Below are positions 3,001-56,040 of a DNA stretch of 64,000 bases, piece after piece; position 1 is the first letter of the stretch; each line of letters starts with the position of its first letter. The notes below the pieces were generated by a model. The model had not been told where the DNA came from. It made no database searches and was given only the letters and a program-made list of their open reading frames with translations. Source of the DNA: Branchiostoma floridae (taxonomy: Eukaryota > Chordata > Leptocardii > Amphioxiformes > Branchiostomatidae). Location: positions 16,342,522 to 16,406,521 of the forward strand of contig NC_049989.1 of NCBI RefSeq assembly GCF_000003815.2, in the 5' to 3' direction. The translations under genes and the position numbers were made by a program.

Positions 3001-6000
3001 GACAACAAGTCATTACACTGGGCCAGCCTAGGCAGTCTATTCAAGCTGATGACGGCTGACCCACAAAGATACAACAAACAAATCTAAATTACACATATGT
3101 ACATAATAGGCCACATAGGCTACGTAAGCTATGAGGAGCAGATGGAAGGTGCTGTAAATCGGTTTGTTGATGTTAAAAATGAATGCAGAGCGTCTGAGAG
3201 TTTTTGGTTTGTAGCAGAGTTTTGACCTGGAGAACCATTAAGGAGGACTCCGGTTGAGAGAGACTGGCCGACAAGTTGGAGCACTGAAGAAGCTAGGGTT
3301 TGCCGTGCAGCCGTGTGCAGAGGACAGTGAAGTAGAAAGTGTGCAACCGTCTCGGACGTAGCACCACAAGCACAGCTCCGGGTTGTGATGTTGAACTTAG
3401 CCAACGTAGAGTTGAGCTGACACCAGCCAAGACGTAGTCTGGTAGTAAGGATGTTGCTCTGGCGATTTCCAAGTCTACGAAACTTCTGGTGTTGACGGGA
3501 AGACAGCATGTGATCTCTGCACTTCTTTTTGAACTGGTTGTAAGATGTGGCTTCCTTTACTTCCCTGGGAAGACTATTCCAGAGTCGTGTGCTGTAGGGG
3601 ACAAAACTGTTCTTGTACGTGGTGGTTCGGCAGTACGGGACTTGTAGATGTGTGTCGTTCCGAAGACGAAGGTGTAGTCGCCGTCGGCTCTCTCTGGTAG
3701 TAGGGACTAGTGGCTGGAGATGGGCTGGTACGGAGCCTGTCACTAGTTTTTGCATGGTAAGTAGTCTGTTGTAGTCTCTTCTGGTTGCGAGACTGTCCCA
3801 CTCTAGTTCTTCTAGTAGTTTGTCATGAGGGGTACGTGCCATCGCTCCTGAGACGAGGCGTCCAGCATGGTACTGTACCCTCTCCATGGTCTTGCTCGCA
3901 GTAACGCTAATGTTGCTAAAGAGGATGGATGCGTACTCTAATTTCGTGCGTACAAGAGTGTTATAGGCAAGCTCCAAGGCTTCTCGGGACAGTTTGCGCT
4001 GTAGTTTGCTCAGGAGCCCGAGAACCTTTTTCGACTTACTGGAAACGGTTTCAGCATGTTCTTTCCACCGGAGTGTATAGTGCATGGTGACGCCTAGGTG
4101 AGTGTAGGAAGTCACCTGTTCGAGGATTTGACCGGCTAGGTAGATGGGGGGTAGTTGGACCTTGCTTTGGTAAGCCTTTATACACATAACTTTGCACTTA
4201 TCAGGGTGTAGTTCGAGCCCCCAGTCGGAAAACCAATCGGAAACAAGACAAAGATCGGCATTAGTTGTGCTGGCAACTTCCTCGGCTGTATGTCCGGAGT
4301 TGTATTCTTGTTAGACTGGAGAAAGAAAAGATTTGGCGGAGTGCATGTTGAACCTAGTAGAGAATGAACAGATCCTATAAGCCTGCATTTACACTTTCGG
4401 GGCTTACTAATGACGAGAGCAAAGTAGAGATTATACCAAGTTTACCGTCAATCGTACAGAGGCAGCTAGCCCTGCAGGATACTAAAACGTCAAATACCAA
4501 GCAGATTTCTTTGTTGCGAATGAACTATTGCTTTGAGTGTCGTCCTTTCACAAACTAAATCAGGTCCAACTTCCAAGTTCAGGTTTGGACCTGGACCTAA
4601 ATTAGACCTGGACCTGAATTTTCTGTACTGGTACCCACTCCTAGAGCTGTTTCAGATGTAGTCAGTTAAGTCAGATCTTGTCTTGGAGTTGTCTTGTCAC
4701 ACGAGTGATGATGTTGATTATCATGTGACAATAGACAGGCTTGAAATATTGACGTCCCCTGTTCGTGAATAAAGTGCTGCATTGTCTCACAGATATGGAT
4801 TGCCTCCCTCACACACACTGGAAATCACTAAACATGACCCATTTTTGCTCTCCAGGGTTAGTAGAGGATCTCCTTAAGCCAGGCTAATGCTGAATCTTGA
4901 CAGACAGTAAGCATGACCCAAATTTTCCTCTTTTGGATCAGCAGAAGATCTTCTTAAGGTATGCTAATGCTGACAGACACTAAACATGACCCATTTTCCC
5001 TCTCCATGATCAGTAGAAGATCTCCATCAGGCATGCTAATTCTGATACTTGACAGACATGAAACATGACCCATTTTTTCCTCCCCAGAGTCAGAAGAAGA
5101 TTTCTTTCAGGCATGCTACTGGTAGTACTGAATCTTGACTGACACTAAACATGACCCAGTTTTCCTCTCCAGGAACAGTAGAAAATCTCCATCATGCTGA
5201 ATCTTGACTAACACGAAACATGACCCATTTTTCCCCCCAGGGTCAGTAGAAGATCTCCATCAGGCAGTGGCAGCAGTAGGAGCAGGAGCCACAGTGCCAG
5301 CAGGAGCCGCAGCCATGCTACTGGCAGTACTGAATCTGGACTGACACTAAACATGACCCATTTTTTCCTCCCCAGGGTCAGCAGAAGGTCTCCATCAGGC
5401 AGTGGCAGCAGTAGGAGCAGGAGCAGGAGCCACAGTGCCAGCAGAAGCCGCAGCCCCAGCGCCCCGCCCAGACACTCCAAGAGCCACAGCCGCAGCTACA
5501 GCAACTCCCCGGCCAGGGTGAGGGGTCGCTCCCGTAGCTACTCCCCGATCATCCCTCGCCGGCGCAACAGGGACTCGCCCAGTCACCTGGAGCCTCGCCG
5601 AATCACCAGGTAACGTTGAGGTTATCGTTATCTGCTTGTGCCCCCGTGTTGGTAACAGTGTGTCTTACAGCAAGGACATGAAGCTGGCTGCAAGAATGAC
5701 ATGACAGGTCCTGATGCAGACTGTTCATGATAAATACAGTCTGTATATCTGGATTTGTCTGTCATCAAATATATGGACTTCAGTCAGCTGTAGAGCAGCA
5801 AAAATTTCAGATGAAGTCTTCCAGTTCGATAAACTTACATTATGTTTTTTTTTCGTGGTTTTGATTTTTTATTTATTTTTTTTGATTTACGAGAACTTTT
5901 TCCCATGCTTGCTCCACTCCGACAAACCATAGTGCCGTTGTATTACCTTTCCGGATTCTTGCTGGCTTGTGAGTGATGTATTTTTCTTGTGTCCGTATAG

Positions 6001-12214: not shown

Positions 12215-13675
12215 ACAGTCCTGTACTTGGTGCTGAACATCGAAACACGGTAAAACCTGTCCTTGGTGCTGAACACGTAAACACGGTAACAATAGCCCTG
12301 TCCTTGGTGCTGAACATCATAACACGGTAACACCAGTCCTGTCCTTGGTGCTGAACATCATAACACGGTAACACCAGTCCTGTCCTTGGTGCTGAACATC
12401 ATAACACGGTAACACCAGTCCTGTCCGTGGTGCTGAACATCATAACACGGTAACACCAGTCCTTTCCTTGGTGCTGAACATCTATACACGATAACACCTG
12501 TCCTTGGTGCTGAACATCTAAACACGGTAAAACCAGTCCTGTCCTTGGTACCGGTGCTGAACATCTAAACACGGTAACACCAGCCCTGTCCTTGGTGCTG
12601 AACATCTAAACATGGTAACACCAGTCCTGTCCTTGGTGCTGAACATCTAAACACGGTAACACCAGTCCTGCCATTGATGCTGAACACCTAAACACGGTAC
12701 CACCAGTCCTGTCCTTGGTGCTGAACATCTAAACACGGTACCACCAGTCCTGTCCTTGGTGCTGAACATCTAAACATAGTAATACCAGTCCTGTCCTTGG
12801 TGCTGAACATCTAAACACGGTAACACCAGTCCTGCCATTGATGCTGAACACCTAAACACGGTACCACCAGTCCTGTCCTTGGTGCTGAACATCTAAACAC
12901 GGTAAAACCAGTCCTGCCATTGATGCTGAACACCTAAACACGGTACCAGCAGTCCTGTCCTTGGTGCTGAACATCTAAACACGGTACCACCAGTCCTGTC
13001 CTTGGTGCTGAACACCTAAACACGGTAACACCAGCCCTGTCCTTGGTGCTGAACATCTAAACACGGTACCACCAGTCCTGTCCTTGGTGCTGAACATCTA
13101 AACATAGTAATACCAGTCCTGTCCTTGGTGCTGAACATCTAAACACGGTAACACCAGTCCTGCCATTGATGCTGAACATCTAAACACGGTACCACCAGTC
13201 CTGTCCTTGGTGCTGAACATCTAAACACGGTACCACCAGTCCTGTCCTTGGTGCTGAACACCTTAACACGGTAACACCAGCCCTGTCCTTGGTGCTGAAC
13301 ATCTAAACATGGTAACACCAGTGCTGTCCTTGGTGCTGAACACCTAAACACGGTAACACCAGCCCTGTCCTTGGTGCTGAACATCTAAACATGGTAACAC
13401 CAGTCCTGTCCTTGGTGCTGAACATATCAACACGGTAACACCAGTCCTGTCCTTGGTGCTGAACATATCAACACGGTACCACCAGTCCTGTCCTTGGTGC
13501 TGAACATCTAAACATGGTAACACAAGTCCTGTCCGTGGTGCTGAACATCATAACACGGTAACGCCAGTCCTGTCCTTGGTGCTGAACATCATAACACGGT
13601 AACGCCAGTCCTGTCCTTGGTGCTGAACATCATAACACGGTAACGCCAGTCCTGTCCTTGGTGCTGAACATCTAT
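12215..13675. repeat. 41-bp minisatellite, about 35 copies
   Basis: The unit contains cctgtccttggtgctgaaca followed by tctaaacacggtaacaccagt. Variants (catcataacacgg, cacctaaacacgg, ccattgatgctg, ggtaccaccag) recur in blocks, showing expansion by multi-unit duplications. The minus strand lacks stop codons in the unit, and because 41 is not a multiple of three all three minus frames stay open over several hundred bases. These ORFs are an artefact of the repeat. Confidence 0.95.
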
Positions 13676-14419: not shown

Positions 14420-16931
14420 TTACATTCTGTACACGGGATTAGTCTCAAAGACAGCCGGATCTGTGGTGTATATCACGTCTTCATCATCCAAAGGCAAGTT
14501 AGCCTGATTCTGTACCTCTCCTGTCATATCATTTCTACACGTGTACGCAGTGTTTATCTCCATGTCAGCTGGCTCTGGTGTGTATATCAGATGTCTATCA
14601 TCCATCATTTCATCAGCGTTAGCCTGACTCTGGTCCTGTTCTGTCTGAACATTCTTACATTTGTATATAGGATTAGAATCAAAGACAGCTTTCTCTGTGG
14701 TATATACTTGATTGCTAGTACCCAACAATTCTTCATGATCACTGATAGCTTGAGATTGGTCCTGACCTGTCTGATCATGCCCAATGGTCCCTGAAAGACC
14801 CGGGGTGTTCGTGTTGGATTCAGAGATGGCCTGAGACTGGCCGTTCTCTGCCTGATCCTGCCCAGAGGTCACGGTAAGAGCCGTAGTGTTATTGTTAGAT
14901 TGAGGATTGATATGCCTTTTCTGACCATGTTGCTTGTCTATATCTTCATACTTGTGATCATGATCACAGACCACTGCAGTAGTTGTGATGTTGACCAACG
15001 ATTTATTATGGTCAGTGATGGCCTGAGACTGACCATGAACTGACTGACCATGTTCGTTGTCTATATCTTCATACTTGTGATCATGATCATGAACCACTGC
15101 AGTAGTTGTGGCCTTTGAGTTGGCCAACGATTTACCATGATCAATGATGGCATGAGACTGGTCCTGCCCTGCAGCTGTCTGACTATGCTGATTGTCTATA
15201 TCTTCATACTTGTGATCATGACCATGAACCACTGCAGTAGTTGTAGTGTTTGAGTTGGCCAACGATTTACCATGATCAATGATGGCATGAGACTGGTCCT
15301 GCCCTGCAGCTGTCTGACTATGCTGATTGTCTATATCTTCATACTTGTGATCATGACCATGAACCACTGCAGTAGTTGTGGCCTTTGAGTTGGCCAACGA
15401 TTTACCATGATCAATGATGGCATGAGACTGGTCCTGCCCTGCAGCTGTCTGACTATGCTGATTGTCTATATCTTCATACTTGTGATCATGACCATGAACC
15501 ACTGCAGTAGTTGTAGTGTTTGAGTTGGCCAACGATTTACCATGATCAATGATGGCATGAGACTGGTCCTGCCCTGCAGCTGTCTGACTATGCCGATTGT
15601 CTAGATCTTCATACTTGTGATCATGATCATAGACCACTGAATCTTTAGAGGTTTGGTACCGACTTGGTAGCGTTTCCAAATCTTTGTAGAGAGGATTTGA
15701 CTGTAAAGTCCGAAGATTTGTATCATCCGAAACATCTTTAGGATGTTTACCTAAAGGAGAATTCTTGGTCCTCCTCTTGCACCTGATTGTGATTATAATT
15801 GTACCAATCAGGACAATGCCAGCAATGAATGAACCAATGACAGAGGCAATGAGAACAGGTACAGGAACACTTTGATCAAATTCATGGAAACGGTTGATTT
15901 CCGGTTTAGATGAATCATCGGGTACTATAGTGAATGACGTGCCTTCAGGTCGAGCTGTTGTGGCAGAATTTTTTAGGAAGTACCAGTTGTAGGGAGACTT
16001 GTGGATAGTGGTACGACTGTTGCAACTGTTGCCACTTTCCAATCGGCGACCAACTGTTGACATGTTGGTTGTTGATACCACTTTACAGATCAGGTCTTTA
16101 GGGTTGATGTCTTTCAGATTCTGTCCAGAGAACACGGCAGGCTGGTAACATGTTATTTGGTTTTCAAACAAATGCGAGCCATTCATTGTATTCCTGACGG
16201 GAACCATCTTACAGTTACACTTCCAGGGGTTGTTATCAATCTGCACATGAGGAATAGATGCCAACATTCCATATACTGACAATGGAAGGGCAAATATCTC
16301 ATTTGACTGCAAATACAAATGTTCGAGTTTAGAGAGATTTGAGAATGCTTTGAGCGGAATCTCCGTTAAGTTGTTGGAATCGAGGTGCAGATATTTTAGC
16401 TGGGGTAGATTTGAGACTGCGTTATGATGAATTTTAGTTATCTGGTTGGATTTTAGGTTCAAGCATTCGAGCCGTAGTAGAGTTGAAAATGCTCTTGGCT
16501 GAATCTGAATGATGTTGTTGACGTTCAGCAACAGTGTGTGTAGCTGGGGGAAATCTGAAAATATACCTGGCTGAACGTGTGTTATTTTATTGTCGTTTAG
16601 GGCTAACTTTGTGAGCCTTGGTAGACTTTTAAATGCGCCAGGGTGAATGATATGTATTTTGTTGTGGTTAAGGTACAGCTCTGCGAGGTTCTGTATGTTT
16701 GAAAAGACACCGGGATGGATGTCAGTTATTTGGTTGTCGTTTATGTATAACTTTGTGAGTTGTGGAAGATTTGAGATTGCGCCTTGTCGAATGTCGGTTA
16801 TTCTGTTGCAGCATAGAAACAAATTTGTGAGCTTTGGGAGATTTGAAAATTGACCAGACTGAATGTCAGTTATTTGATTCTGATCCACGCGCAACTCTGT
16901 CAGACCTGGTAAATTTGAGAATGCACCAGCC
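14420..16931 (-). CDS. leucine-rich-repeat transmembrane receptor, major part
   Basis: One open frame of about 830 codons runs in from an element boundary at 16931; there is no ATG at its start. It encodes nine or ten 24-residue LRRs (LxxLxLxxNxIxxIxxGxFSNLPx), then an LRR C-terminal cap (NPWKCNCK ... C ... C). A membrane helix follows at about residues 346-371 (IASVIGSFIAGIVLIG) with a basic stop-transfer KRR. The cytoplasmic tail of about 450 residues has six HKYED[I/L]D motifs in 45-residue tandem repeats and three NPxY motifs (NPLY, NPIY, NPVY), the last at the C-terminus. YEDI resembles phosphotyrosine SH2 ligands, and NPxY is a PTB or endocytic motif. A cell-surface recognition and signalling role is inferred. 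The gene is interrupted upstream by a transposon. Confidence 0.75.
15050..15660 (-). repeat. 135-bp coding tandem repeat (YEDI array)
   Basis: The receptor tail contains near-identical 135-bp units encoding HDHKYEDIDNQHSQTAAGQD and onward. Alternate units end in NSNTTTT or NSKATTT, giving a 90-residue higher-order dimer. Two more diverged units lie on the C-terminal side. Near identity at DNA level implies recent expansion or homogenisation. Confidence 0.9.
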
Positions 16932-17364
16932 TAGGGCTGGGTACCGGTACAGAGAATTCAGGTCCAGGTCCGGTTCAGGTCCAGAGGATCAGGTCCAGGT
17001 CCGGACCTGAACCTGGACCTGATTCAGTATGACTCATACCAATGGTGCATTTCACTACAAAGAAATCTGTTTGGTGAAGTATTAGACTCACACTGGCGTT
17101 TTAAAATCCTACAACGCTAACTGCACCTGTACGATTGACTGTAAACCTTGGTAGAAATTACTATAAACTATACTCTACTTCACTCTTGTCATTTTCTTCC
17201 AACTGCAAGCGCCAAAACGTGTGAATGCCTGATCAAATAATATGTTAATTTTCTAATCGGTCCAACATCCGGTCCACCTAACTTTTTCAGGTCCGGTTTT
17301 TCCGGACCGGTCCAATAAGAAAAACCGGTTTTGTACCGGTACGCTGTACCGATACCCAGCCCTA
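16932..17364. mobile_element. 433-bp hAT-type non-autonomous element inside the LRR gene
   Basis: Termini are TAGGGCTGGGTACCGGTAC and the inverse GTACCGATACCCAGCCCTA. It is flanked by an 8-bp direct duplication CACCAGCC at 16924-16931 and 17365-17372. An 8-bp duplication with TAGGG-type ends is the hAT signature. Inside are GGACCTG-rich repeats at one end and CCGGTCC repeats at the other. It lies within an LRR codon stretch. Element plus duplication is 441 bp, a multiple of three, but the minus frame meets a stop at about 17189 within the element. Confidence 0.88.
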
Positions 17365-17372
17365 CACCAGCC

Positions 17373-17782
17373 TGAATGTTAGTTATTTCATTGTAGTTTA
17401 AATGCACTACTGCGAGCTTTGGTACTGTTGAAAATATATCAGCCTGAATGTTTGTTATCTTGTTGCAGTTCAGGTACAACTCGACGAGATCGGGTCGATT
17501 TGAGAATGTACCAGACTCAATGTTAATGAACCCTTTGAAGCCTAGGCATAAAATGGTAACGGGTCTATGCATCGGCAATTTATACGGCCGTGCAGATGCA
17601 ATCATATCAAAGTTCAAGACGGGTTTTGGTCGGTTCTGAAGATTAAGATGAATGTTGAGGGCCATCCAGTTGCCCTGTGGGTGATTTACATCCATTCACA
17701 TAGCGAGCTTCTGTAGGCATGTTAGTCTCCTTCACGATATAATGAGAAGGAAAATCAGCATGTGTTGCAGCTTGTTTTCCAT
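17373..17782 (-). pseudogene. N-terminal part of the interrupted LRR gene
   Basis: Minus-strand codons encode two more LRRs (LVELYLNCNKITNIQADIF and LAVVHLNYNEITNIQAG) in the same frame as the part beyond the transposon. An ATG at 17782 starts a hydrophobic leader (MENKLQHMLIFLLIIS) in the same frame, but TGA codons follow at 17734-17732 and just before the ATG at 17695. The cysteine-rich N-cap expected between leader and LRRs is not readable in one frame. Either an intron that I cannot place removes this stretch, or the gene is decayed. The next in-frame ATG is at 17695. Confidence 0.55.
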
Positions 17783-19349: not shown

Positions 19350-20720
19350 AGGTCTCTAAGCCGAGAGGACCCCATGGTACTCGTTCGATTACTTGTACGA
19401 TGTCTGCGCTTTTGGAGTTTCACGCTTGTGAAGTGCACGGTGTTGGAATACACTCATGCCCAAAGTACCTTATGGCCTGGTACTGGTCTGTCGTCTACAG
19501 GCGTGAAGTCCACACCCTTGGATTTCACACATGGAAGGCCCCGGCAGTGAAATACAACTAAGACGAGAGGACCCCCCACCCCCCGGTCCGGCGTCGTATT
19601 GGTGTAGTTGAGTACAACTAAGCCGAGAAAACCCTTATAGCTCGGCCTGGACCGCAAACTAGACATTAGTCCGTCTACTGTCACAAAATCCACGCTTTTC
19701 AAGGTCACGCTTAAAAAGCCTACGACAGTGGAATACTTAGCCAAGAGGACACCTAACGCTCGGTCTGGTACTGGTCCATCTACGGGCACGAAGGCAACGC
19801 TTTTGGAGTTCACGCTTGAAAAGGTCACGGCAGTAGAATACAATTAAGCTGACAGGATCCTCATTACTAGGTCTAGTACTAGCCTGTCTACTGTCACAAA
19901 TTCCACGCTTTTGAAGTTCACGCCTGACAAGTTGACGGCAGTGGAATACAACTAAGCCGAGAGGACCCTCATTACTATGCCTGGTACTGGTCCGTCTACA
20001 GTTACAAATTCCATGCTTTTGAAATTCACGCCTGAAAAGGTCACGGCAGTGGAATACAACTAAGCAGAGAGGACCCCAATTACTCGGCCTGGTACTGATC
20101 CGTATACAGTCACAAATTCCACGCTTTTGAAGTTCACGCCTAAAAGTTTACGGTAGTGGAATACAACTAAGCAGAGGACCCCAATTACCCGGCCTGGTAC
20201 AGGTCCGTATACAGTCACAAATTCCACGCTTTTGGAGTTCACGCCTAGAAGTTGACGGCAGTGGAATACAACTAAGCTGAGAGGACCCTCATAACTAGGC
20301 CTAGTACTAGTACTAGTCCGTCTACAGTCACAAATTCCACGCTTTTGAATTCACGCCTGAAAAGGTCACGGCAGTGGAATACAACTAAGCCGAGAGGATC
20401 ACAATGGAAGAGCTTGGTACTGGTCCATCTACAGGCAGAAATCCGATGCTCTTTGAGTTCAAAACGGAAAAGTCCACGGCAGAACTAAGCCGAGAGGAAA
20501 CCCATGGCTTGGATTGAGACTGGCCCCCACGAGTCGACGCTTTGGAAGTTCACGCTTAAAAAGTCCACGGCAGTGGAATATTACTGCGCCAAGAGGACCC
20601 CCATGACTCGGTCTGGTACTGGTCCGTCTACATTAACGAAGTCTACCCTTTTGAAGTTCACCAGCCGTAGATTTCCGAATCGACCGTTACGGTCCGGAGA
20701 TCTTCGGAGCTAAGCGGGGT
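19350..20720. repeat. satellite of about 100-110 bp, roughly 12 units
   Basis: Repeated blocks are aagccgagaggaccc, ggtactggtccgtctac, cacaaattccacgctttt and cacggcagtggaatacaac. Starts fall near 19355, 19560, 19620, 19740, 19848, 19952, 20062, 20170, 20275, 20388, 20490 and 20588. Units differ by 10-20%, so the array is older than the 41-bp minisatellite. Confidence 0.85.
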
Positions 20721-23860: not shown

Positions 23861-24236
23861 TGTCACCTAATCAATTTGACACCTGTGTTGAACACGTGCC
23901 TTTGTTGTTGGCTTTCCTCTTTAGTAAACAGTTTGTTCCGAAATATAAAATGAATAAAGACTACTGTATGAACTTTTCTAGAAAAAAGCTGCGTACCTTT
24001 TATAATGTAAGGCAATTGCTAGGTGGCGCTTATAGGGGCTGCCACACACGAAACCCGCTCCTTTAACTATGTGTGCAATACTCAAAGTTCTTATGATTTT
24101 AGTCTATGTATGTGGGAAGTTGTATGTATGAATGTTTCCGGCGACCGTGCAGAACCTTTCTGAGCAAGTTTGGACCCGATTTCTTCAAGTTTGGACCGTT
24201 TTTATATAACACTTGGACACCATCCCGGCTAACACA

Positions 24237-27200
24237 ATGGCTTCCCGGTCACGAGCTGTTTTCCAGTACTCCTTGGATTACTTGTGGCGTTTGAAGAAGA
24301 CATCTGCCCCGATCAGTCCTGAAATCAAGAACCAACTTCTCAACCTCGGACTCTGGAAACAAGGAAACAGACCAAGAGGGACGAAAGCTGGTAAGCATTT
24401 TATAAGAAGGATCCCTACAGTAACTGGGAATAGACCATTGAGATGCAAATATGGATCATTCAGTCCCGGCTTAAACCCGCTCCATCCACACATATGTAAA
24501 ACAGTCGGAGAATTTCAACCTGTACTGGATGAAACGAACCCAGCGACATCAAGAAGACTACCTGCTGACCACGCCCCTACGCACATACCTAGAGCATACC
24601 AAAGCGCATTCCGATTGACAAACTGTCCCGTTGCTCTGCCCATCGACAACAGACTTTCTTGTACAGCTACAGCGGCGAGCGTCATGAACAGACCGAGACA
24701 GGTAGTACCGCTTCAACCATCTGCGAACATTCAGAACTCTAAAACTAAATCAGGTAGTCCACGCCAAATCAGTGTACCATCTGTAATGCTATGTAACGCT
24801 CGTTCTTTGGCAAACAAGTTGGATGAGTTTCATTCTGTGTTGTTAAGTGAAAATGTCCAGGTAGCTGCAGTGTCTGAAACCTGGTTTAGTAGTGACTCTC
24901 CCCCAGACTATTGGGCGGTAGATGGGTACAATGTATTTGTGAAATCTAGAGAAAACAGACGTGGTGGTGGTATCGCTCTGTATGTAAGTGATGAGATAGC
25001 TGCACAACAAATCACAACAATCATTGTCCCAGACGAACTGGAATGTATGTGGCTGATGTTACGACCAAAACGTTTACCTAGAAAGATTTCCTCTATCATC
25101 GTGTGTGTTGTATATTCACCGCCACAATCCTCTTGTGAAGACGCTTTAATGCAACACCTGTTAGATACGGTAGATGATCTAAGAACCAGATATGATAATG
25201 CAGGTTATTTGATAATGGGTGATTTTAACCATGTTGATGTGAGAGGGGTGTGCTCTGGCAATGGTCTACAACAGATTGTTAATGTTCCAACCCGATCCGA
25301 GGCTATTCTTGACCTCATTATCACAAACTTGAATGTTTTCTATCACCCGCCCACTGTAACCTCGCCCTTGGGGCGCAGCGATCACAGCATTGTTTTACTC
25401 CATCCCAAACACCAGGCTGTCGTGAACAAGACCACAAAGAGAAGGATACGACCAATGAAGGACTCTAACATCCGATCCTTCGGCCAGTGGATTACGACAC
25501 ACCATTGGGAAGAGGTGTTGAGCGTACAGGGAACACAAAGCAAAACCTTCGCTCTCTATGTAGCTTTAAATCAGGCAATAGAAACCTACTTTCCGTACAA
25601 GACCATCAGAGCCCACGTACAAGACAAGCCGTGGATGTCCCCGAAGATCAAGTCTGCGATCAAGTCCCGACAGCGTGCGTTTCAGGTACAGAACTGGATG
25701 GTATGGCGAGCACTCCGTAACAAGATCCAGACAGCGATTAAGAGAGCAAGAAAACTGTTCTACAGTACTAGAATTCAGAAGTTGAAAAGAGAAAACCCAC
25801 GCGCTTGGTTCAAAGAACTGAAAGTTCTGACAGGCACTCAAAGAAAGGACATGATGGTACCAGTCGATGGTGTTGACCCAGAAAACAACCTCGACATCGC
25901 AAACATCATCAACACGAGGTTTTCAGACATCACAACGTCGCTCCCCCCTCTGGACCTGTCCAAACTCCCGGCATTCCTCCCTTCCCGCCCTCCTCCCACC
26001 GTACAACCGTGGGAGGTGTACCACAAACTGCTGAGAGTTAAGACGACAAAATCGCCGGGCCCAGATGGAATAACGGGCAAGTTGATACGAGAGTTTGCCT
26101 ACGAAATATCTACACCCCTTACTGACATCTTCAACACTTCGCTGCGTGAGGGAGTAGTACCACAACAGTGGAAAGAAGCGGTCGTAGTGCCTCTGCCCAA
26201 GACCCGCCCACCCAGTATAGATCAACTCCGACCCGTTTCCCTGACCTCACTCCTCGCGAAGGTTTGTGAGGACTTCATCGTTTCCTGGGTTCTACAGGAC
26301 ATAAACATGTCTATATCAACTAGCCAGTTTGGATGTTTGAAGGGACGTTCAACCACTCATTGCCTAGTTAATCTGGCAAATCAACTGTACAGAACCGCGG
26401 ATAAGCAGGGGACCTGCAGCACATGGGTTTTAACTGACTTCAGCAAGGCGTTTGACCTTGTTGACCACACAGTGACAATGAAGCATCTACTTGAGATCGG
26501 TGTTCGGCCGGAAGTAATTCCGTGGATCGCCAGCTTCCATGAAGGACGGACTCAGAGAACGAGATACCGGGGGGCGTTGTCCCACACAAAGCGTCTTACG
26601 TGTGGCTTGGCTCAAGGCACAAAGCTCGGACCAATTGTCTTCATAGCCCATGTTAACGAACTACCCAGCATTGTAGCTTCTCCGTCTTGGGCATTTGTAG
26701 ACTATCTCAACCTTGTTGAGTCCCGACTGCTGTCCCAACCACCCAACATACAGGACGATCTGGACCATCTTTCAGGTTGGACTGAGGACAACAGCATGAA
26801 GCTCAATCCGGGCAAATGCAAAGCCATGGTAATCTGTTTTTCCCGCATCCCACCACCACCTCCAGTTCTCAACATCAACGGCCACCAGTTAACAGTTGTC
26901 AAGGTAGCCAAGTGTCTTAGAGTTACATTTCAAGACGACTTGAGGTGGGACACTCACGTCACAGAAACATCCAAGAAGGGAAACCAGAGGCTGCACATCC
27001 TATGCAGACCGCGTCAATTCGACTTACCAACCGAAGACCTCGTAACGGTATATACATGTTACGTCCGCCCTGTGCTGGAGTACGCCGCGCCACTCTGGCA
27101 TCCGGGCTTGACAATAAAGCAACGTGATCAGATCGAACGCATCCAGCGACGGGCTACCAGAATAATCCTGGGCAGGAAGTTTTCTACCTACGTTTTAGCG

Positions 27201-27443
27201 TGTGAAGTTCTCCAACTGCAAACACTGGAGGAACGCAGGGTCGAGCTTTGTGTAAAATTCGCCAGGAATGTCCTCACCTCGGACCTCTACAGGGACTGGC
27301 TACCACAGTCAAGAGGTGATGTTAGTGGTAGGGAGACAAGAAATGGAAATAAGCTTGACTACATGCCAGTGCGCACTAAGCGCTTCAAAACAAGCCCAAT
27401 ACCATACCTAACCCATCTCTTGAACGAACATGTGCTCAAATAG
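24237..27443 (+). CDS. non-LTR retrotransposon ORF2: endonuclease plus reverse transcriptase
   Basis: The first ATG is at 24237; the frame is also open upstream of it. The protein of about 1,068 residues starts with a region of unknown function. An APE-type endonuclease follows: NARSLANKLDEF, SETWF, GDFN near residue 328, SDH near 380. The reverse transcriptase comes next: SPGPDGI, LRPVSLTS, FSKAFDLVDH near 733, GLAQGTKLGP and FVDYLN near 822. The C-terminus has VLEYAAPLWHPG and IQRRATRIILG. This order matches CR1/L2-group LINEs. The usual second aspartate of the [FY]xDD box is Tyr (GAC TAT), so catalysis is probably lost although the frame is otherwise unbroken. The 3'UTR ends near 27660 with aataaa at about 27631. 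No ORF1 was found. Confidence 0.88.
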   Translation: MASRSRAVFQYSLDYLWRLKKTSAPISPEIKNQLLNLGLWKQGNRPRGTKAGKHFIRRIPTVTGNRPLRCKYGSFSPGLNPLHPHICKTVGEFQPVLDETNPATSRRLPADHAPTHIPRAYQSAFRLTNCPVALPIDNRLSCTATAASVMNRPRQVVPLQPSANIQNSKTKSGSPRQISVPSVMLCNARSLANKLDEFHSVLLSENVQVAAVSETWFSSDSPPDYWAVDGYNVFVKSRENRRGGGIALYVSDEIAAQQITTIIVPDELECMWLMLRPKRLPRKISSIIVCVVYSPPQSSCEDALMQHLLDTVDDLRTRYDNAGYLIMGDFNHVDVRGVCSGNGLQQIVNVPTRSEAILDLIITNLNVFYHPPTVTSPLGRSDHSIVLLHPKHQAVVNKTTKRRIRPMKDSNIRSFGQWITTHHWEEVLSVQGTQSKTFALYVALNQAIETYFPYKTIRAHVQDKPWMSPKIKSAIKSRQRAFQVQNWMVWRALRNKIQTAIKRARKLFYSTRIQKLKRENPRAWFKELKVLTGTQRKDMMVPVDGVDPENNLDIANIINTRFSDITTSLPPLDLSKLPAFLPSRPPPTVQPWEVYHKLLRVKTTKSPGPDGITGKLIREFAYEISTPLTDIFNTSLREGVVPQQWKEAVVVPLPKTRPPSIDQLRPVSLTSLLAKVCEDFIVSWVLQDINMSISTSQFGCLKGRSTTHCLVNLANQLYRTADKQGTCSTWVLTDFSKAFDLVDHTVTMKHLLEIGVRPEVIPWIASFHEGRTQRTRYRGALSHTKRLTCGLAQGTKLGPIVFIAHVNELPSIVASPSWAFVDYLNLVESRLLSQPPNIQDDLDHLSGWTEDNSMKLNPGKCKAMVICFSRIPPPPPVLNINGHQLTVVKVAKCLRVTFQDDLRWDTHVTETSKKGNQRLHILCRPRQFDLPTEDLVTVYTCYVRPVLEYAAPLWHPGLTIKQRDQIERIQRRATRIILGRKFSTYVLACEVLQLQTLEERRVELCVKFARNVLTSDLYRDWLPQSRGDVSGRETRNGNKLDYMPVRTKRFKTSPIPYLTHLLNEHVLK

Positions 27444-34682: not shown

Positions 34683-37600
34683 ATGGGGTGTAAAGAAACC
34701 TTAAGAGAGTTGTTTTCCTTTAAGACGTCGGTGGTGTTTTGGTTGGTGCCTATTGCAGCCTGTCCTCTACCGATCTCCTATGCATGGACGGAGTTCTACA
34801 TGGTGAGTATCGCCATTGAGTAATATTTAACGGTACGTTACCCTCCTGGTAGCTTATTGGTTGGGTAACATGACTTAGCAGTGTAAAAGGCAACTTCTAC
34901 TGACCTCAGTTAAGTCCTAATCAGTTTACTCCAATACATCGGAAGATTTCTGAACGGGCCCTTATACACTAGCTAAAGTTAAGGCACAACCCACGTTTTT
35001 TTTGGAGGCCACATTCGCCACGTATTTCTGAAAACGTCCAGGCTGTACAGGGCAGGCGCATCGCCCGTACTGGCACGCACGGGGGGCGAATCCGCAGCCC
35101 GATGGCACACAAAGTTTTGCCTGCACGTAAATTTAAAGTTCTACAGCGTGTCTGCGTGCTCCGAAATCCGTCGGACTCCCTACGAGTTCGTACGGAGGCG
35201 GTACTCACCACTTACGGACACCAAAAGATTACCCACGTTTTGGCACGTAGACAGCACGTATTTGCGCGTACGGCTGGTTGTGACCTTAGCTTTAAGGATG
35301 TGACGTTGAAATATAGAACATTGTAGAATATTGGCATTAGTTTTTGTGATTGATATAACAATTGTGTGTTTTTATTGATTAACTTATCGATTGATTGATT
35401 GATTTCCCTCAGCCAGCAGCATGTGCCTACGTCATCATCATCATGGCGGCTTATTGGATGTTCGAAGTGGTGCCATTGGCTGTGACGGCGCTCCTTCCCA
35501 TGATCCTCTTCCCGGTGATGGGGATCCAACCGTCATCAGAAGTCTGTTTGAACTACTTGAAGGTAAAACGTTTAACTTGAGATTACTGACAAGTTATGTC
35601 TACCTTGACAGGAGTACAAATGCAATAAGCCATTTTCATTTTTTTTAACAATGTAGTCTTTCCATGTCGGTAGTGAAGACTATCATTTTGTCTGTGTAGT
35701 GTGAGAGAGATTGTATACTATATTACCGACGCTTGCATCATGCAGAATTCAAACGCAGTGTAAGGGTAATTATTTGCGACATCGTACGTGGTGTTCATTG
35801 TATATGTTCTTTCCTTGTTCTTGGTAGCCAATAAAAAATCCTGTTTGAAAAGTGTCATGTCGATAAGTTGCTTACCTCAAAATCCAACCCAAAGGTAAAT
35901 GTAGGCTTTCTCAAGTGTCCTCTATCCCTTTAATTTGTTTGAGATGGGTGTATTCTGCTAGCATGATGTACCTGGGAGGAGGGGGTATACTTTGGCCTAG
36001 GGGGTTAGAATCTGGCTTAGGCTAGATTATACCCCGGGTTATAATTTAGCCTAGGCCAGAATATACCCGGGTATATTCTGGCCAGGGGTAGATTCTGGCC
36101 TACTACACCGGGAACATTAAGAGTCTTAGTCTTAGAGTTTGGTCTTGATTTAGAGTCCCTGACTTTAAGTATGTTCGTATTACAACCAAGGCAAAATCAT
36201 CATCATCATCATCATCAACATCATCTTTATCTTCTTCTCCTTCTATTTCTTTTCTTCAATTCATCAAACACGAACTCAGTCTGAAAAGATGATATCTCAC
36301 TGCACTTGGAACACCAGTGCGGGATATGCAACGAATTTCAGAGATAAAGAATGAATTTTCTTAGTTTTGTATATTTTGTTGTCTTTTAAGTCATACTTTT
36401 ACGTATTACGCAATATATAAATTGTAGAAGATCGGCGAAAATAACACAGTGCCGCAGTGAACAAATTAAACCCCGCAGTGCCGCACCGGTGACGCAAGTG
36501 CAGTGAGATACCACCTTTGCCCGTGCAATGTCCCGGTGTGAAAATACCATCGTATTTTGATCACTAGGAAATCAAAGTTCGGCATTAAAGTTAAGAAAAA
36601 AAAACAAGATGCATGTCTAGATTTTAAAATCAGACACCATAGATTTTGTACCAAGAACTAACAAAATATGGTCACAGCCAACAAGTCTTAGCTTCTATTT
36701 CTGCAGAAAGTGACACTAGTGTGGTAGACTGGTATCACTTATAAACTCACTGTCATGTGTACCACATTGGTGCCACTTTTACTATCGAACTACTTTTACT
36801 TCTACAACTATGGTCATGGCTACATATTCCTCACTAGTGTCACTTCTACATGTACAATTGAGGCTATCACACTACATGTATATATATATATTTCGCCATT
36901 TTGTAACTTTCTCGTCATGTTCACCATATCCGAAAGGGAAATATTTCCCCTGAAATCAGTCGAAAATCAATCAGTGCGCTGATGTCATCCATGAAATTTA
37001 CATGCCGTGGCCTAATAAAACAAAAATCAATGTAGTGTCAAAAGTATCACCAAGAATTCGACAGTGATACTTTAAAGGTGCACTCTCACTGCCATTGCGT
37101 CAAGTCTGCGTCACTACGTATATGGAGTTCGTTCACTGAGCCACTGTTCACTGAGCCGTTATTTTCTCCGCTTTTTTTAATGATTTATATATTGCGTAAT
37201 ACGTAAAAGTATGACTTAGAAGAAGACAAAATACACAAAATATTATGTTCGTTCTTTATCCTTGAAATTCGTTGAGTATCTTTCGAACCCCGCGGTGACG
37301 CAGGCTTGACGAAAGTGCAGTGAGTGCACATTAACAGAACAAGTATTGTTTCCGTAGGACAATTCAGTGTTGCTCCTTGGAGGGTTGCTGGTGGCTATCG
37401 CAGTGGAGAAGTGTAACCTGCACACGAGGATCGCACTCAGGATCCTGCTGCTGGTCGGATCAGAACTGCAGTGGTGAGTCAAAGTCTAAATCATATTGCT
37501 CACCTTGTAGTACATAGCTACGGTGGCCCAGAAGTACAATTTATTTTCTGTGTACATTTTTATTTTCTCTGTGCATTTTTATATTCTGTGTGCATTTTCA

Positions 37601-40600
37601 TTTTCTCTGTACATTTTCATATTCTGTGTGCATTTTGATTTTCTCTGTACATTTTGATATTCTGTGTGCATTTTCATTTTCTCTGTACATTTTCATATTC
37701 TGTGTGCATTTTCATATTCTGTGCGCATTTTCATTTTCTGTGTGCATTTTCATATTCTCTGTGCATTTTCATATTCTGTGCATCTTCATTTTCTGTGTGC
37801 ATTTTCATTTTCTCTGTGCATTTTTATATTCTGTGCGCATTTTCATTTTCTGTGTGCATTTTCAATTTCTCTCTGGATTTTCATTTTCTGTGTGCATTTT
37901 TATTCTCTCTGTGCATTTACATTTCATCTGTGCATTTTAATTTATCTGTGCATTTTCATTATCTCGGTCGGCGTTGCAGCGTCTTTCGTAAGGAACGTAA
38001 AATAGGGGTCTCGAGTTCGAGAAGGTGCCTCAGTACGTTATACGGAAGGGATAGCAACTCCTCCCTTTAAAGATGTACCCTGCTACATAAACAACAAAGA
38101 AACCGGGCCTGCTGAACTATGTGACACTAGATATTACAAGGGTTCTAAACGAATAAGTTAAGCGCAGTCAGTTGAGCAAAAGCTTTTTATTTGTACGCCC
38201 CTCCAATGACCAATGAACACACAGATGACTATAAGTATCAAAGAGTGTTGTTTAACGGCCGTATCAGGTTGGTACCTTTTTCATTTATCTATTTATTTAT
38301 TTCAGTGTACAATACACAAATACAAAACAATAGTCAGATGACAGCCTCCCATAAAGTCTTAACATCAGTTCAGTTCAGAACCAACAAAGCCAAGCGGAAT
38401 TCTACATTAAAGATAACAAAAGAAGCAATTTCACTTATAAAGATCATAAACAAGGGAAATCATAACAGGCACAAAGTTCCCCACGTACCCCCGAAGGCTG
38501 GTACCTTGCTTATGGCGTTGGAATTTGTTTGTATGTTTGTTTGTTTGTCTTCAGGGTGATGTTTGGCTTCATGGCCGCCACGGGGCTGTTGTCCATGTGG
38601 ATCAGTAACACTGCCGCCGCCGCCATGATGACCCCCATAGGTCAGGCCGTGCTGGACCAACTCTTCAGCGAAGAGAGAAGGCGGCAGCAGGAGGAATCTG
38701 ACGATGAATGTTCTCCATTAATAATCACTGGTACGGCTTACTTTATACAAACGGACAATAAAAACTATTGTGGTAGAAAGCAATATATGTATCACAAGGA
38801 AATACACAAATACCAAATTTAGGCAATGTTAATCGTCACATGGTCTAGTCTAATGAACTACTGCTCTGCTTACTCAAGCGCATGAATATACTTGGTGATC
38901 CGCCCCTCCAGTCCTGTCCTGCCACTTGCTACGTAAAGTAATCAAGCACCACAGGGTGGCTGATACTTTACTAGTAACCATGGTGACAGTCGTCTGGTCT
39001 AGGTCATTGACCTCATTCTTTTGGAGAAAATGAAGAAAATGCAGACGCAGGGAAGTACTCAACGCAACGATCAGGCGTCACCTGTATGATTTCAAATCTT
39101 CCTCGCTAACTTTCTAAGGCCATGTTGATTTGACTATATGGATGGCATCCTTTGAGAACCCCCAAACTGGCGAGTGTGCGAATAAAAAGTTTGGGGACTG
39201 ACTTTGGCATTCTATGATATCAGTAGCATTTTTTTCAATTGTTTTGACATTTTAACAATTGTTCTGGCAATCTATGGCATATTTTTGCTAAATTCACAGC
39301 TGCTTTGTACGATTTACAGTCTGGTCGTAAACGTTGTTTGAAAACGGCCGAAAACGGATGCGCGGATGTCATCCATATACTGTAATCTAATCAAAATGAC
39401 CCTCTGGCGTCAAAATAAATTTCTAAAGAGTAACATACGAACATAGGATTCATTCCAGTAAAACATACCACTGTACGTGTAATTTTTTTTACAGACGAAG
39501 ACATTGAAAACAACCACCATATTGTTCCAAGCTCAACCTTAGAGAATGGACACCATCCGGTAATGACTGATTATGAGTCAATCGCTGATATCGCTGTTCA
39601 GTAAGTACACATTTTGTAGTTTCGTTTCGTACGATCTTATAACTACCTTAAATGTACAGCTATCTAATGAAGATTGGTTTACAGGAATGCACGAAACTTT
39701 AAAGGGGCATTCCACTCCACACAGGAGTTTTATTTTCCAATAGATGGTAATTTTAGGAAGTAATAAATCCATACTACTTCACATTATACGATAGAGTACC
39801 CAGTTGCGCCACGTGCTTCAAAAGCATTCAGTCTTCTACTAAACTCCCCAAGTACTCTCTAATTTGATTAATCCTATGGCTGAATACAATTCAACGCTTT
39901 TAGGTAAAGTTACAAAACTAATTTCAGGATCGCTAAGAAATCTCGTTTGGTTATGTTTTCTTTGCTATCTCATGAGCAATTTGCCTTCTTGGTGTGCTTA
40001 GCGACCCTCATTTATTCCGAAAATATGCACGATATACAGAGTGCCTCTGCGTATAGGGAATGCATGGGTAGGGTCTGCATGGGTTTAGTAAGTGTCATAT
40101 TGTTTTATAAAACACACATCGCGCAATTCATCACAAGATGAATTCCACAAAAATCTATATCTATATAGCCGGCATAACCGTCGCTCGGCGTAACACAACA
40201 GCTTCGCAGGCACGCGGCGCGGCAGCAGCTGGTTACATTACACCGAACGACCCGTCACACCTAGCGTTTGCACATCTATCTGCAAGCGTTCTTTAAAACT
40301 ATCCAGAGAAGATGCCCCTACTGTTGACATATTTTCATGTTTATATGTGGTATATTTTGTAATTATCTAAATGGATGCACTATAGACGTGCTTAATTCTG
40401 TGTCTTCGATAAAAAATGGATAAAAATCATATAGTGGGAATCAAAAAGGACAAGATAGTGTTTAGCCTGCATTCTAATTTTATAAATTTCCCGCTATCTG
40501 TATATCATATTGTTTTCATCAGCGTGCAATTACTGCCAAACTTTTCCAAGTCTCGAAACAAAATCTCGCAAGATCAACCCTTATTTGGAAACATGGGCGT

Positions 40601-54119: not shown

Positions 54120-56040
54120 ATTTTTTTTCTTCTGCAGGGATGGTCAACGTGACGGTTAAGTACCAAAATGAGCAAATATGTTGTGTTGTAGCCTAATAAT
54201 TGTATTTGTAGAAGTGACACTTGCGAGGTACCCAGGACTGTATACGTAGTTGTAGAAATAAAACTTCTTGGATAGTTGTGGAAAAACTAAACTTTACTTA
54301 ACCAACACTAAGATTAATTGGGACTTACCCCAAATTTTCAGCCGACTCCGTCAGCCTTGTTCACGGAATGGACCCGTCTGCTGTAACTTCCGGACGTGAC
54401 GTCAGGGACAAACGACTGCAGCAGAGGGTCGTAGATGCCAGATAACCTGTGTCGCCCCCCGTCTCTGTTTAGTGATGGACGGTGGGCACGAATGTACACA
54501 GCCTCCTTTATTCCTCTTGCAAAGAACTCCGGCTCTGAGTCAAGGATTTTGACTTTTTCAAGAGAAACTGAGTGTCCTGGCGACTCAATGTGTATATGTT
54601 TGGACACTTCCGAGCCCACAGAACTTGGTCGCTGGTGTTCCAGGAATCTCGTTTTTAATGCGCGCTCTGTTTCTCCGATATACGATTCCTTGCACTGACC
54701 TTTGTTTGTATTACCTTGGCAACGTATATGGTAGACTACTCCACATTTGCTCTCCCTAGGTGTTTTGTCTTTCGGTGATACAAGTACATTTCTTAGAGTC
54801 TGGGTCGGTTTGAAGCAGGTCTTTATTCCATATTTCCCGAAGGTCCTACGTAGTGCTTCAGAAATACCCTTAGAATACGGCAAGACCACTAACCCCTTGT
54901 TAGGTTTGGAAGAGGTGGTTTTCGTAGTTTGTACTGACTGGGGTGGCTTAGGTGTAGTGGCCTTTTTGATGGCCCAATCGGGGTAACCACACCGTTTTAG
55001 AGACTGGATCACGTGATCCTTCTCCTCCTCTTTGTCCTGAGGATCAGTGATAATGGTCTCTGCCCGATGGAACAGGGTGCGAATGACCCCTAGTTTGTGG
55101 TCTAGCGGATGGTTGGAAGAAAAGTTCAAGTACTGATCAGTGTGGGTTTTCTTTCTGTAAATTCTGATCTGCAGCGAGCCGTCCTCTTTTATAACTGTAA
55201 GAGTGTCCAAAAAAGGTAAGGAGTTGTTCTGCTGTTGTTCAAAAGTGAACTTGATGTCCGGATCTAGGCTGTTCAAATGGTCAGTGAATTCCTCAGCGTA
55301 CGCTTTCTTAAGTTTAGTATGAGTGTCATCCACATATCTGTACCACCATAATGGTGCGTGGGGGGCAGTGCTAAGAGCAACTTGTTCAAGGTGTTCTAGG
55401 TAAAGATTGCACACTATAGGGGACACTGGGGACCCCATAGCGGCCCCATGGATTTGCTGGTAGTAAATCCCATCATGAACAAAGTAGGTGCACTTTAAAC
55501 AAGTGTTCAATAAATCAACAATCTGGGCGGGCTTTAGTTTGGTGCGTTCTGACAAGCTTTTATCTTCTTCTAGTCTTTCTAAAATTACCTTACAAGCTTT
55601 GTCAACAGGGACGGATGTAAACAGGGCTGTTACGTCATAGGAACGCAATTCCTCGTCTTTTTCTACTCTCTGATCTTTTATGAGTTCGACGAAGTGTTGT
55701 GAGTTCTTTCATGCTAAGATTCTTGGATAGTTGTAAAAGTCACACCAATATGGAAGTCATGAGTGTGGTTACCAACTTTGCTGGTGATGCTAGTCTACCA
55801 CACTAGTGTCACTTTTACCACACCAGTACATGACTTGAATACAGGAATGAATGCCTTGTTGACTCTGATACCATGTTTTGTCCTTTAAATTCTTGTTACA
55901 ACATTCATCACAACTTAGTGGTGCCTATTTTTTAAAATGTAGCCATCTTGTTTTTTTTAACCATCTTGTTTTTTTCGCCCTATTGCACTATTTTTGCAGT
56001 CTGCAGAGGATGTCATCCATAATTTTTATTTGCTGTGGCC
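54120..56040. mobile_element. family-B TIR element, copy 4, split by Penelope
   Basis: The right end ggatgtcatccataattttt, then gctgtggcc and TTA (56041-56043), matches family B. The interior blocks gtgacacttgcgaggtaccc and accacactagtgtcactttt occur on either side of the Penelope-like insertion. The left end is approximate. Confidence 0.65.
54280..55719 (-). mobile_element. Penelope-like element, 5'-truncated, RT plus GIY-YIG
   Basis: It is flanked by the 15-bp duplication TTCTTGGATAGTTGT (54265-54279 and 55720-55734). The minus frame is open from the truncation (about 55710) to a stop at 54338, about 455 codons. It shows RT motif A (SYDVTALFTSVPVDKA), motif B (GAAMGSPVSPIVCNLYLE), motif C (YRYVDD), FLDTLTV, a Lys-rich linker, and a GIY-YIG-like nuclease (CGVVYHIRC ... 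YIGETERALKTRFLEH). These are features of endonuclease-bearing Penelope-like elements. The first RT motifs and the 5' end are absent, so it cannot move by itself. Both catalytic motifs that remain are intact. Confidence 0.9.

Follow-up and report, generated by a model that had tools for sequence, protein, structure and literature searches.

The receptor locus studied here lies in the window, the whole 64,000-nucleotide stretch of Branchiostoma floridae DNA that was analysed (C11:16342522-16406521, in a genome of 513 Mb and 431 contigs), and its sequence places it among the type I LRR receptors of a large family, each member of which is encoded in one long open frame. Our analysis directly establishes the family, the modules of its cytoplasmic tails, the retention of a tyrosine motif within them, and variation in the copy number of that motif. 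We tentatively propose, as a serious possibility, that these tails are multivalent docking platforms of the Src/SH2 type whose gain is set by the number of motif-bearing cassettes, in a family of innate or phagocytic receptors.

The minus-strand ORF 16930-14423 (836 aa; stop codon 14420-14422) reads, in order, LRRs, a cysteine cap, one TM helix and a tail of approximately 450 aa (Table 1). Tandem LRRs with a C-terminal cysteine cap and a single TM helix mark the product as an LRR type I transmembrane receptor, and its homologous ectodomain, together with [HD]xxYED[IMVL] cassettes in a GQ/S-rich repeat, places it in the family. IGFALS, LRRC15, LRRTM and LGR4/VLR chains were among the 336 PDB sequences matching the LRR part, while the Pfam LRRCT match on the cap fell below cut-off (E=0.046). 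By composition, 79% of the residues in the tail are disorder-promoting. The tail gave no Pfam match above cut-off (two lay below it) and no match to PDB sequences at E up to 1.

A first-pass annotation of this DNA had described six HKYED[I/L]D motifs and three NPxY motifs behind an LRR ectodomain, and both the sequence and the LRR_8 match bear this out. The YEDL tyrosine codon lies at 15611-13 and the YEDI tyrosine codons at 15476-78, 15341-43, 15206-08, 15071-73 and 14948-50, giving spacings of 45, 45, 45, 45 and 41 aa in an array for which TRF reported a period of 135 bp and 5.4 copies. All six cassettes fit a Y-acidic-acidic-hydrophobic pattern, and the six observed YED[IL] motifs compare with a mean of 0.008 and a maximum of 1 in 10,000 shuffles of the tail. 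The NPxY sites are NPLY (15686-88), NPIY (14663-65) and NPVY (14429-31); a fourth site of this type is degenerate (NTAY, 14543-45). Two further repeat-like units C-terminal to the array were called by their resemblance to cassette-less units of the family, and were not reported by the unit profile described below.

The annotation had also called the repeats near-identical and 45 residues long. This holds for copies 1-4, which share 95.6-99.3% DNA identity with each other, but not for copies 5-6, which are only 43-49% identical to the others in ungapped comparison (partly an indel effect), nor for the last spacing. Copies 1-2 and 3-4 form two 270-bp units that are 98.9% identical. Five codons vary among copies 1-4, and the variation is nonsynonymous at 5/5. 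The near-identity of copies 1-4 is the product of recent duplication, and we rejected it as a sign of selection.

The LRR ectodomain named in the annotation is likewise present, but interrupted towards its N-terminus. The MITE in its coding region is bounded on both sides by the 8-bp target duplication CACCAGCC, whose two copies are identical (16924-16931 and 17365-17372), and an in-frame stop (16931-16933) falls at its edge, before the 836-aa ORF. This element occurs at no fewer than 40 places in the genome at 97% identity or higher, the window copy included. Further upstream, the start of the gene, MENKLQHMLIFLLII, is matched by the signal peptides of paralogues and is followed by two in-frame stops. 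The LRRNT cysteine cluster is absent from the N-terminal region, and the locus has no intact signal peptide with LRRNT. Given the two stops, the missing LRRNT cysteines and the MITE, the locus is probably a pseudogene or a damaged allele; for this locus alone, we hold the pseudogene reading, with moderate confidence, to be the likelier one. An assembly error or unusual splicing may instead explain these features. Read by eye, the borders of the MITE would place GT and AG in phase, which would resemble the arrangement of an introner.

Table 1. Features of the receptor locus in the window.
Feature	Position	Strand	Basis
Damaged N-terminus: MENKLQHMLIFLLIIS, stop, RRLTCLQKLAM, stop	17696..17782	-	Paralogue comparison
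Upstream LRR fragment, same gene	17365..17550	-	Pfam LRR_8 2.2e-16 (ORF 17189-17695); tblastn of paralogues
MITE, 433 bp, inside LRR coding region, ends TAGGGCTGGGTA...	16932..17364	.	Sequence comparison
LRR repeats 3' of MITE, aa 1-233	16232..16930	-	Pfam LRR_8 E=3.6e-53
C-terminal cysteine cap NPWKCNC...C...C, aa 234-282	16085..16231	-	Sequence read by eye
Single TM helix, then basic residues CKRRTK	15791..15862	-	Sequence and hydropathy
Membrane-proximal NPLYKDL, composite NPxY and YxxL	15677..15697	-	Sequence
Tandem array with six HKYED[I/L]D cassettes	14920..15639	-	TRF and sequence
Two repeat-like units (SGQDQAENGQSQ..., GHDQTGQDQSQ...) without tyrosine cassette	14729..14866	-	Read by eye
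C-terminal tyrosine module [VI]YT....A.....N[PT]xY, three times (NPIY, NTAY, NPVY)	14423..14710	-	Sequence

The surrounding sequence holds several other repeats and mobile elements. A 41-bp minisatellite of approximately 36 copies (12216-13674) lies directly 3' of the receptor gene. At 24210-27440 there is a LINE-type open frame of 1077 codons with reverse transcriptase and endonuclease domains, and a weaker reverse transcriptase match, below the Pfam cut-off, lies at 54341-55708. Tandem repeats of approximately 80 bp (4826-5266) adjoin an Arg/Ser-rich frame (5224-5610) with a Pfam SRRM_C match, a 108-bp unit repeated in tandem roughly 7-9 times, whose minus strand contains open frames, spans 19667-20661, and a 19-bp array of approximately 22 copies spans 37543-37964.

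A search of the same genome with the window ORF as query found at least 141 matching pieces, a lower bound from a sole census in which 54 of 1959 candidates were scored. We analysed 34 ORFs, comprising the window ORF and 33 from 53 chosen regions, with all paralogues drawn from this one genome. Under strict patterns, 25 of the 34 carry a signal peptide and a cap in one frame; in L016, L017, L029 and L043 the cap pattern is the sole one missed, L037 has a poor TM call and L042 is a fragment. Many paralogues share a tail unit, for example TSGHDHQYEDIDKQHNQTGQGQSQAITESNTNTTA, and the tails draw on a kit of three modules. The first is [H/D]-D-H-[Q/K]-Y-E-D-[I/M/V/L]-[D/N] within a Gln/Thr/Asn-rich spacer repeat, the second is L-A-A-L-K-P-N-P-M-Y-x-x-V, to which NPLYKDL in the window is similar, and the third is Y...N-x-x-Y. 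The second module, which has its hydrophobic residue at -6 and not at -5, yielded 22 LAAL-type matches in the tails of L011 to L043, 17 of them reading NPxY; in L015 the tyrosine of one such module is lost.

The number of tyrosine-bearing cassettes ranges from 0-1 to 15 (the latter in L043) over the 34 ORFs, and these counts are lower bounds since L012 and L013 carry YED yet score no cassette. The tail of L026 is strongly expanded, with 15 cassettes, 7 of which have replaced tyrosine with His (3) or Asn (4) while keeping E-D and, mostly, the hydrophobic residue at +3. Units resembled those of their own gene more than those of other genes in L043 (identity 0.82 within versus 0.70 between), L026 (0.84 versus 0.71) and the window (0.85 versus 0.64), with a smaller excess in other genes and none in L025 (0.60 versus 0.63). 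This higher within-gene identity suggests that the arrays expanded separately in several genes of the family.

We next consider whether the YED motif is constrained. Repeat units were located by a profile that covered -9 to -1 and +4 relative to the tyrosine and took no account of 0 to +3, which found 160 units; the seed accepted any residue at position 0 and required E/D/K/G at +1 and D/E/N at +2. An initial sorting drew on +1 and +2, which builds part of the conservation at these two positions into the result. It assigned 113 units from 31 of the 34 ORFs to the cassette class, 101 of them with tyrosine, and left 47 units cassette-less. I, L, M or V followed at +3 in 94 of the 101 (I 46, M 26, V 20, L 2). 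Deviation of any kind affected 5 genes at Y, 6 at E, 7 at D+2 and 9 at D-3, compared with 12-24 at other columns. Using one unit per gene over 200 draws, and with core columns (-3, 0, +1, +2) that were picked with the per-column table in view, pN was 0.067 in the core (pS 0.404) and 0.287 in the flank (pS 0.414).

Since this sorting favours +1 and +2, it was repeated blind, on columns -2 and -1 only. The blind sorting placed 115 units from 31 of the 34 ORFs in the cassette class, with Y, E and D each present in 99 and a hydrophobic +3 residue (ILMV) in 92 of the 99 Y-cassettes; its other class comprised 45 units, 8 of which carry tyrosine, all of them QQY units. Over 100 draws, pN at Y was 0.085; core pN was 0.113 (pS 0.355) and flank pN 0.271 (pS 0.408), so that pN/pS was 0.32 in the core versus 0.66 in the flank and the contrast fell from approximately fourfold to approximately twofold. 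Between genes, nonsynonymous change at the Y codon thus runs at about one third of the flank rate. Selection at the Y codon alone is unprovable, since synonymous change there is too rare: the codon is TAT in 99 cassettes and TAC in 2 (first sorting), and its pN/pS is 0.47 over all pairs in the first sorting and 0.085/0.235 in the blind one. Across the family, the YED motif nevertheless looks constrained, being kept more than its surroundings.

The first-pass annotation had proposed a search for homologues with the repeat, and YED cassettes in 31 of 34 ORFs of the same genome answer it. It had named, as evidence against its reading, homologues that keep the repeat while losing the tyrosine. Such loss is confined to a minority, 12 of 113 cassettes (7 of them in L026) in addition to the 47 cassette-less units in the first sorting, or 16 of 115 in the blind sorting, and five of those 16 seem to be shifted or to have no cassette.

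Motif counts define the class of these sites further. Y[EDK][DEN][ILMV] occurs 103 times in the 34 tails, against a shuffled mean of 1.5 and maximum of 5. No tail of the 34 holds a canonical ITAM (YxxI/L x6-8 YxxI/L), and a looser rule (6-12, ILMV) finds one; the window tail has no ITIM ([ILVS]xYxx[ILV]), and strict ITIMs number 14 in 11 of the 34 tails. On these counts we rejected ITAM and ITIM readings of the tail. YxxM occurs 31 times in 16 tails and YxN 27 times in 17. The Src-type SH2 ligand pYEEI has acidic residues at +1/+2 and Ile at +3, and YED[I/L/V] matches the SH2 preference of Src-family, Shc or Syk type, while YEDM would also fit p85. Compared by sequence, the cassettes of the family share the acidic +1/+2 residues and have Ile or often M/V at +3. 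The same genome gave 60 exon-level matches to SH2 domains.

NPxY is also frequent, with 48 sites in 26 of the 34 ORFs. Classical PTB ligands have a hydrophobic residue at -5 of NPxY, whereas the -5 residues in the window are Q, D and E; among the 48 family sites L or V is found at -5 in 4 and A in 9, while L lies at -6 in 27. The sites thus depart from classical PTB ligands, and the suggestion in the first-pass annotation that NPxY here binds PTB domains is weaker than its SH2 reading.

The nearest published receptors that we found are BbLcLRR and FrLRR. In the available part of the report on BbLcLRR, from Branchiostoma belcheri, this receptor is inhibitory: Lck phosphorylates three tail tyrosines, within DDYATV, HDYSEV and HDYDDP, and in Jurkat cells under stimulation the receptor binds SHIP1 (PMC8211107; GenBank MW390887). 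It has in common with the window family an LRR ectodomain, a TM segment and tail tyrosines. It differs in its length of 699 aa, its predicted WSC domain, its three phosphosites and the lack of any repeat array in the part of the source available; any sequence kinship between the two is putative. FrLRR, an amphioxus LRR receptor without a cytoplasmic tail, is described in the accessible part of its report as promoting phagocytosis via Grb2 (PMC10199209). Draper/MEGF10 tails combine an ITAM with NPxY and employ Src-family kinases and Shark/Syk readers, and CED-1 NPxY may bind CED-6 without phosphorylation, as given in the portion of the source at hand (PMC8092387). These receptors resemble the window family in joining NPxY to YxxL or an ITAM in one tail. 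They differ in their EMI/EGF-type ectodomain and in that, as far as this portion goes, no tandem array is described, while the window family differs from them in having neither ITAM spacing nor the classical -5 residue.

Could the same motifs instead serve trafficking? YED-hydrophobic would then be a YxxPhi signal for AP complexes and NPxY a clathrin adaptor signal, sorting the receptors to endosomes or lysosomes without phosphorylation, which we think unlikely. The +3 residues of the Y-cassettes match YxxPhi, NPxY is frequent, and the unphosphorylated binding possible for CED-1 offers a precedent. YxxPhi has no requirement for E-D at +1/+2, though, and E and D are each retained in 99 of 115 blind-sorted units; nor is the FxNPxY spacing present, and up to 15 membrane-distant copies would seem unnecessary for sorting. 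We consider it similarly unlikely that the phosphorylated sites recruit SHIP- or SHP-type phosphatases, with more copies giving stronger damping. BbLcLRR, the one tested amphioxus LRR receptor with tail tyrosines that we found, is a SHIP1-binding inhibitor whose sites share Asp/His flanks with those of the window family, as far as the available part of its report goes. Against this, the window tail is devoid of ITIMs, strict ITIMs are limited to the 11 tails mentioned, and His at -2 in 92 of 113 YED cassettes falls outside the ITIM rule.

A neutral origin of the array, in which a coding minisatellite expanded in frame through duplication and conversion and has no docking role, its window copy a decaying pseudogene, appears improbable to a greater degree. 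It would fit the exclusively nonsynonymous differences among window copies 1-4, the closer resemblance of units to those of their own gene in L043, L026 and the window, the stops, missing LRRNT cysteines and MITE of the window locus, and the loss of tyrosine in 7 of 15 L026 copies. Homogenisation should, however, affect all columns alike, and so leaves unexplained the core-flank contrast, with pN at Y well below that of the flank between genes in the blind sorting. This explanation is disfavoured for the family, yet describes the recent history of the window copy.

Several near-equivalent tyrosines provide multivalent SH2 docking in p130Cas, LAT and TCR zeta; these are not LRR receptors and have other motifs, and we liken the window tail to them by description only. 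In the multivalent docking reading that we prefer, ligand clustering would lead a Src-family kinase to act on the YED-hydrophobic sites. Once phosphorylated, all sites of a tail would bind one and the same class of SH2 protein, for YED[I/L/V] plausibly of Src-family, Shc or Syk type and for YEDM possibly of p85 type. The tail would act as a multivalent docking array, with more cassettes changing its gain, and the NxxY modules would potentially add adaptor or endocytic docking. The docking array of the first-pass annotation is upheld to the extent that Y-E-D-hydrophobic is retained family-wide, fits Src-type SH2 ligands in sequence and has SH2 matches in the same genome, that the tail is of disorder-type composition and rich in tyrosine modules, that cassette number differs among paralogues, and that a Src-family kinase is reported to phosphorylate an amphioxus LRR receptor, BbLcLRR; it is set back in that the window locus is probably damaged.

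The family probably comprises pattern-recognition or phagocytic receptors of amphioxus, with a putative immune role. Amphioxus belongs to a chordate lineage that is not known to possess antigen receptors of the vertebrate type. A further, rather doubtful step would be that cassette number and the +3 residue (I, M, V) form an evolvable rheostat and a selector of SH2 partners in cephalochordate-type innate receptors: in-frame tandem duplication would alter the number of cassettes, and the LRR sensor of each paralogue would be coupled to a signal valency that differs from those of the others. If our docking inference is true, the family would be a natural dose series, from 0-1 to 15 cassettes, for relating phosphotyrosine valency to receptor output, and multivalent phosphotyrosine signalling would extend beyond Ig-type immune receptors to LRR sensors.
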